This document shows, piece after piece, positions 10,030 to 13,271 of a DNA stretch of 64,000 nucleotides. The stretch covers positions 3,724,501 through 3,788,500 of the forward strand of contig NZ_AP023213.1 of the NCBI RefSeq assembly GCF_014218275.1, given 5' to 3'. The notes under the pieces are model-generated. The model was not told the DNA's origin and ran no database searches. It was given only the letters and a program-made list of their open reading frames with translations. Source of the stretch: Citrifermentans bremense. GTDB lineage: Bacteria > Desulfobacterota > Desulfuromonadia > Geobacterales > Geobacteraceae. The first letter of the stretch is position 1, and each line of letters begins with the position of its first letter. Both the position numbers and the translations under genes were made by a program.

Positions 10030-11055
10030 CTAGTTGCTGCTGGTCAGACCGAGCGCGTCGTTTTCCAGCATCTCCTCCGGGTTCTCCTCCTCGACCCCGA
10101 GGATCAGGTCGTCCAGCTTGAACACGTCAGGATTGACCTTGGCGATCCGTTTGGCGCCGAGGAAGCGTGAACGGTAGTATGAGGTGTTGAGCGAGGATAT
10201 GACCACCCGGCGGTCGCGCGAGGAGGCGTGGATCATCTTGTTGTTGCCCAGGTAGATCCCTACGTGTGACGGATAGGAGGCGTAGGTGGCGAAGAAGATG
10301 AGATCCCCCTTCTGCAGGTCCCCGGGCGCCACCGCGTTCCCCACCTCGAACTGCTCGCGGGCTGTGCGCGGCAAGGCGACCTCCAGGTCTCGGAACACGT
10401 GCTGCACGAAGCTTGAGCAGTCGATGCCGGAGCGGGAACTCCCGCCGAAGCGGTAGCGGGTCCCCAGGAAACCGTAGGCCGATTTCTTCAACTCCTTCAG
10501 GTTGTCCACCTTGAGCTCTGCGTTCTTGGCGAGGTCGACCTGCTGCTCAGGTTCGAGCGCGGTCAATTCCTGCAGGCTCTGCTCGTAATCCTTCTCGTTA
10601 AAAAGGTCGCCGTGACGCAGTTGCAGCTTTTTAACCACCTTGACCTTCGGTTCCTCGGCGGGTTCGCTCTCCTTGAGCACCAGCACCTTTCCGGCTTTGA
10701 CCTTGCTGCCGCGCAGACCGTTCAGACGCTTCAGCTCAGCTACGGAGACGCCGGTCTTCTTGGCGATGCGGGAAAGGGTTTCGCTTTTCTTCACCTTGTA
10801 AACCGCACTCGATGCGGCCTCGTTTTTTCCCTCGGAAACCGAGCGCGCGGGAATGACCAGGACGACGCGCGGCTTCACGCTGTTGCCAACCAGGTTGTTC
10901 GCCGCTTTCAGTTCTTCGACGGTGACGTGATATTTTTTGGCGAGGGAATATAGGGTTTCATGCTTTTTAACGCGGTGGGTCTTGGCAGCGAAGGAGAGCG
11001 AAGGGACGGAGAGCATGAGAAGGCATAAGGCGATTAGCTTGACGCATTTTATCAT
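10030..11055 (-). CDS. LysM and NlpC/P60 cell-wall hydrolase
   Basis: 341 residues. An N-terminal signal peptide (about 1-23) is followed by two LysM peptidoglycan-binding modules (about 25-70, HRVKKHETLYSLAKKYHV, and about 85-130, YKVKKSETLSRIAKKTGV), a linker, and an NlpC/P60 cysteine peptidase domain (about 190-315). The catalytic Cys lies in IDCSSFVQHVF, the His in YPSHVGIYLG, with MIHASSRDR as the third site. It most likely cleaves peptide cross-links in periplasmic murein. The ATG has GGAGG 5 bases upstream. A near-consensus promoter is at 11099-11127 and a terminator follows the gene. Confidence 0.93.
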   Translation of the reverse strand: MIKCVKLIALCLLMLSVPSLSFAAKTHRVKKHETLYSLAKKYHVTVEELKAANNLVGNSVKPRVVLVIPARSVSEGKNEAASSAVYKVKKSETLSRIAKKTGVSVAELKRLNGLRGSKVKAGKVLVLKESEPAEEPKVKVVKKLQLRHGDLFNEKDYEQSLQELTALEPEQQVDLAKNAELKVDNLKELKKSAYGFLGTRYRFGGSSRSGIDCSSFVQHVFRDLEVALPRTAREQFEVGNAVAPGDLQKGDLIFFATYASYPSHVGIYLGNNKMIHASSRDRRVVISSLNTSYYRSRFLGAKRIAKVNPDVFKLDDLILGVEEENPEEMLENDALGLTSSN

Positions 11056-11098
11056 GAATCCTCCTTCATTGTTTTAAAAAATACCGCAGGCGCCAAAG

Positions 11099-11127
11099 TT
11101 TATATAACAAAAGTTGCCTGATGTCAA
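11099..11127 (-). promoter_or_regulatory. strong sigma-70-type promoter for the LysM-NlpC/P60 gene
   Basis: On the minus strand TTGACA (11127-11122), a 17-base spacer and TATAAA (11104-11099) are near-perfect. The transcript start would fall near 11092, with a leader of about 37 bases. Confidence 0.75.
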
Positions 11128-11182
11128 CCAATTGATCGTATTGCTAAGAAATATTTTTTAAATGGTTTGTAAAATCAGGCGG

Positions 11183-12349
11183 TTAGCGCCGGCGGTTTTC
11201 CTCCTTCAAGGGCTTGCGCTCCGCCGTGACGCGGATGAGGGAGCGGTCCATGTTCACCACTACGACCCCCGGGGGAAGCTTGATCTGCTCCTTGCTGATC
11301 TGGATGCTGTTGTTCCCTTCCTTCACCTTGGAAAGGTCGAGGTCCACCACGATGTCGAGCTGTTTGGGCGAGACGAGGTTCGAAAACGACTTGAGCTGCA
11401 GGTCGACCTGGTCCGGGTAGCTGCGGGTCAAGGTGAGCGTGTCGGGGAGGTTATGGAAGGTGACCGGTGCAGTTATGGTCAGGATCTCACCCTGGCGGAA
11501 GGTGATCAGCAGCCAGCAGATAACCACCGTGCAGAGGATCGCCACCTTGGGCCAGAGGTTGGAGAAGAGCCGCGACCTGAGCCCCACCCTCTGCTCTTCC
11601 GGGGAGAGGGGCTGCAGCAGGGAGGTGAGTTTCTCGTGAAGTTCCGCGGCGGAGGCGACCGGCTGCAATTCGCCCCCTATGGAAAGGGAGACCTCCCCAC
11701 GCTCCTCGGAAACCACCACGATGGCGGCGTCGGAGCGCTCCGACAAGCCGAGTGCTGCCCTGTGTCTCGTCCCCAGGTGCTGCGGCACCTCTGCGCTCAC
11801 CGAAAGCGGCAGATGGCAGGAGGCAAGCGAGACCCTGCCGTCCTTGATCAGCACCGCTCCGTCATGCAGCGGCGAAGTGGGGATGAAGATGCTGCTGATC
11901 AACGAACCGCTCACCAGGGAATCCAGGGGAACGCCGTGCAGGATGTGGTCGTCCAAAAGCTCCTCGCGCTGGAAGACGACCAGCGCGCCGATGCGCTGGG
12001 AGGCCAGGGAGAAGACGGTTGCCGAGAACTCCATGAGGTCGATGCGCAGCGTGTTCTCCTCGCGGTCGAAGAAGTTGCGCAACAGGCTGAACCGGTAGAG
12101 GGCCTGGCGGATCTCCGCCTGGAACACCACGATCAAGAGCACCAGCAGCACGGTTCCCAGTTCCTGCAGGATCCAGCTGGTCATGAAGAGCCCGAGGTTC
12201 TTGGTGATGAAGTAGATCACCCCAAGAAAGAGCAGTCCCAGGACGACCTGGAGCGCCTTGGAGTTCTTGAACCAGCTGTAAAGCTGGTAGACCAGGAAGG
12301 TCATGATGAGGATGTCTGCGATGTCCTGGGGCCGGAATTGCGGGAGCAA
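11183..12349 (-). CDS. cdaA: CdaA-type diadenylate cyclase fused to a YbbR/CdaR domain
   Basis: About 388 residues from a TTG start at 12349, chosen because AGGAGG stands 6 bases upstream; a longer reading to 12412 adds an Arg-rich stretch. Three membrane helices (about 10-95) precede the DAC domain (about 105-225), whose catalytic motifs are PLHDGAVLI and GTRHRAALG. It makes cyclic di-AMP from two ATP. A further membrane span (about 275-295, VAILCTVVICWLLITF) and one YbbR-like repeat (about 300-385) follow. In Firmicutes the cyclase CdaA and the YbbR regulator CdaR are separate neighbouring genes; here both are in one chain with the YbbR part predicted outside the cytoplasm. Confidence 0.92.
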   Translation of the reverse strand: MLPQFRPQDIADILIMTFLVYQLYSWFKNSKALQVVLGLLFLGVIYFITKNLGLFMTSWILQELGTVLLVLLIVVFQAEIRQALYRFSLLRNFFDREENTLRIDLMEFSATVFSLASQRIGALVVFQREELLDDHILHGVPLDSLVSGSLISSIFIPTSPLHDGAVLIKDGRVSLASCHLPLSVSAEVPQHLGTRHRAALGLSERSDAAIVVVSEERGEVSLSIGGELQPVASAAELHEKLTSLLQPLSPEEQRVGLRSRLFSNLWPKVAILCTVVICWLLITFRQGEILTITAPVTFHNLPDTLTLTRSYPDQVDLQLKSFSNLVSPKQLDIVVDLDLSKVKEGNNSIQISKEQIKLPPGVVVVNMDRSLIRVTAERKPLKEENRRR

Positions 12350-12529
12350 CAGTTTCCTCCTTGAGGAGATGACGCCGGAGAGTGAGCAGCGCCGCCGCCG
12401 GTTCTTCACCACCCGTTTTGAAGTGAACCGGAAGAGGCGGGACCGCTTTTTGCTGGCAAGAGGGGGCGCTTTATGTTAAAAATCAAGGCTTGCCAACCCT
12501 TTCCACCACGGGAAGAGGTTAAAATTTAT

Positions 12530-12546
12530 AGCATTTCACGCGCCAA
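12530..12546 (-). promoter_or_regulatory. weak sigma-54-like element upstream of cdaA
   Basis: On the minus strand TTGGCGCG-TGAA-ATGCT keeps GG and GC 10 bases apart, but the -12 block is ATGC rather than TTGC. It overlaps the ubiE leader and is about 180 bases from the cdaA start. Confidence 0.25.
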
Positions 12547-12560
12547 AAAGGTAGGAAAAT

Positions 12561-13271
12561 ATGTACGCATTGTCGGAAAAGGGTGAACGTATCCGCGCCA
12601 TGTTCGGGAGCATCGCCCCGCGCTACGATCTTTTGAACAGGCTTCTTTCCCTGGGGATTGACCGCCGCTGGCGCCGCTTCGCGGTAAAGCAGATCGGGGT
12701 CAAGGGACCCGGGCGCGTGCTCGACGTCGCCACCGGCACCGGGGACGTGGCGCTGGAAATCGCCTCCCAGACCCCTGCCTCCGTCAGCATCGTCGGCATC
12801 GACTTCACCCCCGAGATGATAGATTTGGGGAAGGTGAAGGTTGAGGGATCGCGCCACTCCGGCCGGATCACCCTGCAGGTGGCGCCCTGCGAAGAGATCC
12901 CTTTCGAGGACGGGAGCTTCGACGCTGCCACCATATCCTTCGGCATCAGGAACGTGGTGGACCGGATCAAGGGTCTCACCGAGATGCACCGGGTGCTCAA
13001 GGAGGAGGGAAAGATCGTCATCCTTGAGTTCTCAACCCCTACTCTCCCCATCTTCAAGGACCTGTACCATTTCTACTTCCTGAAGGTGCTCCCCAAGATC
13101 GGCGGCGCCTTCTCCAGGTTCAGCGCCTACCAGTACCTGCCGGATTCCGTCCTGGAGTTTCCTCCAAGGGAGGTGTTCAAGGGGATGATGACACAGGTGG
13201 GGTTCAAGGACGTGCGGCACTTCGACCTGACCGGCGGCATCGCCACCGTCTACGTCGGCACGAAGAAGTAA
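12561..13271 (+). CDS. ubiE: demethylmenaquinone methyltransferase
   Basis: 236 residues, the normal size of MenG/UbiE. It transfers a methyl group from S-adenosylmethionine to demethylmenaquinone, the last step of menaquinone synthesis. SAM-binding motif I VLDVATGTGDVALEI (about 54-68), the family motif FGIRNVVD (about 130-137) and the tail GGIATVYVGTK are all present. The ATG has a GGTAGG-type ribosome site. It is divergent from cdaA. Menaquinone is the respiratory quinone expected in Geobacter-type anaerobes. Confidence 0.96.
   Translation: MYALSEKGERIRAMFGSIAPRYDLLNRLLSLGIDRRWRRFAVKQIGVKGPGRVLDVATGTGDVALEIASQTPASVSIVGIDFTPEMIDLGKVKVEGSRHSGRITLQVAPCEEIPFEDGSFDAATISFGIRNVVDRIKGLTEMHRVLKEEGKIVILEFSTPTLPIFKDLYHFYFLKVLPKIGGAFSRFSAYQYLPDSVLEFPPREVFKGMMTQVGFKDVRHFDLTGGIATVYVGTKK

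Follow-up and report, generated by a model that had tools for sequence, protein, structure and literature searches.

Gene organisation of the locus

The window analysed was the whole 64,000-nucleotide stretch of contig NZ_AP023213.1 of Citrifermentans bremense, and the features of the locus are given in Table 1 together with related loci. The open frame at its centre runs on the minus strand, which the earlier note had left unstated, and closes with a TAA stop codon (11183-11185). A longer minus-strand frame of 409 amino acids (12412..11183) begins with GTG at 12412, and comparison with homologues indicated that the TTG at 12349 is the better start. Pfam coordinates were computed on the 409-residue frame, where CdaA_N, DAC and YbbR span residues 25-101, 133-248 and 316-396, and 21 was subtracted to obtain the 388-residue numbering used here.

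The encoded protein begins with an N-terminal membrane domain and a DAC domain, after which come another membrane helix and a single YbbR domain, and it matched the NCBIfam model of CdaA (TIGR00159) with 202.5 bits against a cut-off of 188.8. A stop or frameshift between the domains was looked for and none was found. A frameshift or read-through artefact as the source of the fusion was ruled out, since 56 of 58 genomes, that of the window included, match over the full length; the two exceptions were G049, which lacked a full-length fused match, and G057, in which the match falls in two pieces.

Table 1. Coordinates of the fused gene, its domains and neighbours in the window, and of related loci elsewhere
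Feature	Coordinates	Strand	Details and evidence
Fused diadenylate cyclase-YbbR gene	11183..12349	-	388 aa, TTG start; ORF list, homologues, Pfam, NCBIfam
CdaA_N transmembrane domain, residues 4-80	12110..12340	-	Pfam PF19293, E 1.1e-9
DAC cyclase domain, residues 112-227	11669..12016	-	Pfam PF02457, E 3.4e-37
DGA active-site motif, residues 163-165	11855..11863	-	Sequence
RHR active-site motif, residues 195-197	11759..11767	-	Sequence
Further membrane helix, residues 265-283	11501..11557	-	Hydropathy, model helix 265-286, hhalign
Single YbbR domain, residues 295-375, predicted periplasmic	11225..11467	-	Pfam PF07949, 3lyw/5hqh fold match, Foldseek
LysM-LysM-NlpC/P60 peptidoglycan endopeptidase	10030..11055	-	127 nt downstream of fused gene; Pfam
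Divergent menG/ubiE methyltransferase gene	12561..13271	+	Pfam PF01209
Conserved promoter-like element TTGACA-N11-TTGTTATATAAA	11099..11127	-	Between fused gene and hydrolase gene
Stand-alone YbbR of the same genome (G000)	L005:6835-7218		Between cdaA and glmM; 14.8 bits against Pfam YbbR
Third DAC gene, DACNV sensor domain	L006:6876-8267; genome C1 2,795,875-2,797,266	-	DGA and GTRHR present
Divergent sister-family fusions carrying RHA	L187:463-1638, L188:5281-6456, L190:5337-6530
Canonical Geobacterales cdaA loci without recognisable ybbR	L063, L069, L071, L072, L073, L075, L076

Domain structure of the fused protein

The AlphaFold2 model of the whole protein was of moderate confidence (pLDDT 73.8, pTM 0.43). 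The N-terminal domain was modelled as three helices (7-27, 31-52 and 58-94) at low confidence, with pLDDT mostly 55-66; hydropathy flagged only the second and third of these, missed the first, and also marked two stretches within the DAC domain. The modelled DAC domain superposed on CdaA (6hvm_B) with a VIA-align Z of 25.3 and an rmsd of 1.8 over 152 residues, and a Foldseek search with the whole model returned solely DAC chains among the 50 matches listed. Both active-site motifs are intact, as the earlier note had it, and are invariant across 21 aligned Geobacterales fused proteins. Across a wider set of 37 fused proteins the D and G of DGA are present in all and the A in 36, while the R and H of RHR are present in all and the last R in 34, three proteins of a sister family having RHA instead. 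Certain residues characterise the fused proteins, R217 for example (33/37, against 7/78 canonical ones). R126 of B. subtilis CdaA, the GlmM contact, presumably corresponds to R128 of the fused protein, judged by the placing of the B. subtilis motif.

The Pfam YbbR match of the window protein (E 1.4e-4; 22.6 bits, 0.3 above the cut-off of 22.3) is by itself marginal. A two-repeat homologue (L038) scored 57.8 bits over two stretches (E 1.4e-15), and a profile of the 21 fused proteins matched the YbbR-type chains 2kxy, 4qdy, 2l3u and 5hqh with E values of 0.0003 to 0.005. When the further helix (TM4) and YbbR part of 31 of the 37 fused proteins was compared with 13 of the 14 stand-alone YbbR hits of the same order, hhalign gave 99.4% and E 3.2e-21 over 125 columns, the helix included, by which residues 265-283 correspond to the helix that anchors stand-alone YbbR/CdaR at its N terminus. 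Modelled residues 288-379 superposed on the solved YbbR domain 3lyw (Z 10.2, rmsd 2.0, 85 residues), and the modelled domain also on that of Listeria lmo2119, 5hqh (Z 9.1, rmsd 3.0, 93 aligned). The C-terminal part modelled alone had a low pLDDT of 64.2, with 3lyw ranked top by Foldseek (E 5.5e-5). A false-positive YbbR assignment was thereby ruled out, and because of the profile, hhalign and fold matches the fused protein is described as CdaA followed by a small but complete CdaR with its anchor helix. The earlier reading of DAC, an extra membrane span and YbbR in one chain thus agrees with Pfam domains, helix and fold matches alike.

The single YbbR repeat that had been reported is correct for the window protein, and it is the less common form, as 16 of the 21 aligned relatives carry two. 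One-repeat proteins were found in the genus of the window organism, in G023 and G024, which are closely related to it, and likewise in G040, G046 and G050, a genus of another family. Going by length, the tree described below requires four or more switches in repeat number, and the TM4-YbbR part retains only three invariant columns in 31 fused proteins. Such freedom would suit a YbbR part that is a mere anchor or scaffold, keeping the cyclase at one site of the envelope or within a complex with no effect on its activity, and a study of S. aureus YbbR likewise reports no conclusive regulatory role (PMC6368335); set against this are the rise in c-di-AMP reported when B. subtilis cdaR was co-expressed with cdaA in E. 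coli (PMC8316131) and the negative regulation reported in some Gram-positives (PMC12974146), so some effect of YbbR is likely and a purely structural role appears rather unlikely.

Other cyclases and c-di-AMP components of the genome

The genome of the window organism contains three DAC genes, namely a canonical cdaA, the fused gene and a DACNV-DAC gene. Gene names read from translations gave the order tilS-ftsH-folP-cdaA-ybbR-glmM-pdxJ for the canonical operon, where four bases are shared between the frames of cdaA and ybbR. It is here, beside the ordinary cdaA, that a ybbR gene lies, and none adjoins the fused gene, in accordance with the earlier note. The stand-alone YbbR resembles the fused C-terminal part in having an anchor helix and one YbbR domain, and differs in being a separate gene. 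The third cyclase shares the DAC domain and differs by its DACNV sensor domain, with no CdaA_N or YbbR match in Pfam; its gene adjoins genes reading by translation as lexA and dinB. The interpretation first offered for the locus therefore stands as regards the domain layout and the notion that the regulator sits in cis, and has to be amended for these other cyclases, the cdaA-ybbR-glmM operon and the DACNV-type DAC.

In other genomes ftsH/folP, cdaA and glmM were found together at 37 of 37 canonical loci, a count that excludes the 38th locus examined (L190), which is a fused locus. At an E value of 1e-5, ybbR was not recognisable between cdaA and glmM in 7 of 20 canonical Geobacterales loci.

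The window's genome also encodes a 7TMR-HDED (PgpH-type) protein and gave eight TrkA_C matches, which fall in seven frames; degradation or binding of c-di-AMP belongs to the known activities of these families. The c-di-AMP riboswitch RF00379 was found in 10 of 39 relatives' genomes and had no match in the genome of the window organism. A c-di-AMP riboswitch before the hydrolase gene was accordingly ruled out, the window being without any Rfam match. Eight of the relatives' riboswitch loci (L207-L214) were read by eye, and the downstream frames appeared Kup-like in six and permease-like in two; a Pfam check of two loci gave one K_trans transporter and one AA_permease_2.

In an alignment the organism's GlmM reads R/D/E at the contact sites D151/E154/D195. 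This would fit weak GlmM control and is not decisive, since the CdaA contact arginine seems to be kept in the fused protein (R128), which GlmM may therefore still control. The same R/D/E pattern occurs in GlmM of E. coli and P. aeruginosa, and it has been suggested that it may hinder binding in Gram-negatives (PMC8573169).

Distribution of the fused form

A canonical-type match was read from the match table for all 58 genomes. In a class-wide sample of 146 genomes the fused protein was found above 580 bits in 71 of 72 Geobacterales and in none of the 74 others, and the non-Geobacterales genomes showed a separate cdaA, in both cases among the matches listed. At least 20 rows from sister orders matched the profile through cdaA into ybbR across one stop, and three divergent fusions, each in a single frame, were present in two genomes of the sample outside Geobacterales (G113 and G142). 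Both fused genes of G113 (L187 and L188) have an NhaA-type antiporter gene directly after them.

A scan of named genomes, in which the best 80 of 584 loci were examined, revealed a single frame through both parts in 13 loci (L107-L117, L119 and L142). These belong to Geobacterales, Desulfobacterales, another Desulfobacterota record and metagenome-assembled genomes (MAGs) titled Deltaproteobacteria, which NCBI files under Myxococcota. At L117 a DUF2914 protein is encoded just upstream of the fused gene (L117:3527-3964), and at L119 a protein of the same length occupies the same place.

For the order of the Desulfobacula record G161 a sample of 96 genomes was searched, and a DAC match was obtained in 74 of them. 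The fused form was found in 67 genomes with 77 full-length matches, meaning that the frame is as long as the match, although three list a stop within it; five further rows were partial or short. Judged by match end, 58 of the 77 extend into the second repeat and the other 19 stop short of it; five of these 19 have frames of 481-595 amino acids that may hold a second, unaligned repeat. By frame length, six genomes (G170, G196, G222, G233, G242 and G255) hold both one- and two-repeat-length fused cyclases. No CdaA-sized frame scoring like the full-length fusions was seen in the 96-genome sample. Seven rows matched the YbbR part alone, and therefore separate YbbR proteins also exist in this order.

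Behind the named fused loci outside Geobacterales lie ten genomes, nine of which were searched; in five of the nine (MAGs) the fused gene was the sole DAC match, so it would supply any DAC-made c-di-AMP there. This finding, like the invariant DGA and RHR motifs of the Geobacterales proteins, argues against a degenerate protein or one that makes something other than c-di-AMP, with the canonical CdaA and the third DAC doing the work. Such a protein would be compatible with the two other DAC genes of the genome and with the RHA of the three sister-family proteins, but is considered improbable.

Descent of the fused cyclase

A tree of 115 proteins was computed from the cyclase part without YbbR, using the 133 rows that passed a motif filter, less 21 that were all from Bacillota, plus the three RHA proteins that the filter had missed; six loci (L125, L126, L170, L171, L174 and L177) provided no closed frame with the motifs. 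All 37 fused rows fell on one side of a branch with an SH-aLRT of 98, and the 22 canonical rows of Geobacterales formed a branch of their own (SH-aLRT 100). In a smaller tree of 46 rows the 17 fused rows again grouped together (SH-aLRT 99), and an AU test on these 46 of the 115 rows, with the Geobacterales fused rows held with the canonical rows of the class, gave a topology 99.6 log units worse (p-AU 2.8e-10).

The fused gene might instead have arisen lately and locally, by fusion or duplication within the cdaA-ybbR operon of this genome, and then mean little beyond it. The four-base overlap of the two frames would make such an event easy, and the sister-order rows that run from cdaA into ybbR with a single stop between them illustrate a similar arrangement; the single clade recovered in both trees and the rejection by the AU test, under the models used, nevertheless make it very improbable. 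On the sequence comparisons made here, the fused form is an old clade shared by Geobacterales, Desulfobacterales and others and not a one-off.

Gene neighbourhood

Downstream of the fused gene, and in the same orientation, lies the gene of a LysM-NlpC/P60 protein whose start, judged by eye, resembles a signal peptide. That gene was next in line in 60 of 60 Geobacterales genomes in which the locus was examined. The divergent neighbour menG was present in 56 of the 60, the other four loci having short flanks in which menG was not seen. Reading and comparing the gap sequences between fused gene and hydrolase gene revealed the promoter-like element, which recurs as TTGACA-N11-TTGTTATAWWAA with at most two mismatches in 55 of 60 genomes and has no second copy in the genome of the window organism; apart from the ribosome-binding region, conservation is poor over most of the remaining gap. 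A consensus promoter scan of positions 10900-12700 found none. We read the element as a putative promoter of the hydrolase gene itself or a regulator site, in which case the two genes could be transcribed separately.

The adjacency may reflect stable synteny. At 10 fused loci outside Geobacterales, some of them short, neither a hydrolase nor a glmM match was found at E 1e-8, and the link to the hydrolase is thus not general. Within Geobacterales the constancy of this neighbour makes an envelope role the best reading for the fused cyclase. For Corynebacterium glutamicum a link between c-di-AMP and an NlpC peptidase has been published (PMC9960051).

Comparison with known cyclases and proposed function

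With the Firmicutes system of CdaA (DacA), CdaR/YbbR and GlmM the fused protein shares the CdaA_N domain, a DAC domain with DGA and RHR, and a TIGR00159 score above cut-off, and its C-terminal part shares with the CdaR/YbbR partner one membrane helix and an outward YbbR portion. It differs in being one chain instead of two, with helix and YbbR placed after DAC, in lying outside any ybbR-glmM operon between menG and the LysM-NlpC/P60 gene, and in co-existing with a canonical copy in Geobacterales. The window protein has one YbbR repeat, compared to three or four in CdaR of lactic acid bacteria (PMC10243994). That CdaA and CdaR are separate in Firmicutes, as the earlier note assumed, does not hold for some streptococci, in which the two are likewise joined in one chain, and the same source gives the function of CdaR as unknown (PMC10243994). 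The joining of CdaA and CdaR is therefore of a known kind; the streptococcal fusions are described for some strains (PMC10243994), while the form described here is, among the proteins of the tree, a separate old clade that extends across an order and beyond. Our literature search turned up only the streptococcal fusions and no report from this lineage, nor any title on the signal in Geobacter; the 2023 catalogue of DAC architectures (10.1128/jb.00023-23) may list the architecture. The lineage-wide old clade, the standing as sole DAC found in several genomes and the fixed hydrolase neighbour did not come up in that search either.

We consider it rather probable that the fused protein is a membrane-bound diadenylate cyclase with a built-in CdaR/YbbR that is tuned in cis by the envelope, and that in Geobacterales it forms a second cyclase linked to the hydrolase. 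The N-terminal helices would anchor a cytoplasmic DAC domain, two DAC domains would meet head to head to form c-di-AMP from two ATP, and the further helix would cross to the periplasm, where the YbbR domain would lie. The state of the envelope, acting via YbbR and this helix, could then set DAC pairing and hence c-di-AMP output, giving control in cis that would need no separate CdaR or GlmM. What the analysis establishes is the domain make-up, the motifs, descent as one clade, conservation across the lineage and the constancy of the hydrolase neighbour. We infer c-di-AMP synthesis, head-to-head pairing and topology from knowledge of the family; the pairing and the DGA and RHR motifs are described for CdaA (PMC8573169 and PMC6368335). 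Tuning in cis by the periplasmic domain is drawn from published CdaA and YbbR features together with the domain anatomy: an interaction between YbbR and the membrane region of CdaA has been reported (PMC6368335), and the fusion puts YbbR at that place. Any sensing by YbbR is speculative, as is a role of the hydrolase as partner or output. In Geobacterales the fused protein probably serves as a second cyclase in addition to the housekeeping CdaA, facing the envelope and tied to its LysM-NlpC/P60 neighbour.

A broader proposal, put forward tentatively as possible but not probable, is that these proteins make up an ancient and separate class, spanning Desulfobacterota and neighbouring groups, of c-di-AMP synthases that sense the envelope and consist of a single chain. 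YbbR would read the periplasm or peptidoglycan directly and tune the cyclase in cis, the single chain would replace CdaA plus CdaR in many Desulfobacterales, and in Geobacterales a secreted LysM-NlpC/P60 endopeptidase would go with it as the envelope arm of the circuit.

The literature leaves open what CdaR/YbbR does and whether CdaA is under its control at all (PMC10243994, PMC6368335). The natural fusion holds the regulator at a fixed one-to-one ratio with intact active-site motifs, making the question testable by cutting one tail. Its distribution suggests that many sulfate- and metal-reducing Gram-negatives may synthesise c-di-AMP through the fused form, and the constant peptidoglycan-hydrolase neighbour provides a place to look for its function.
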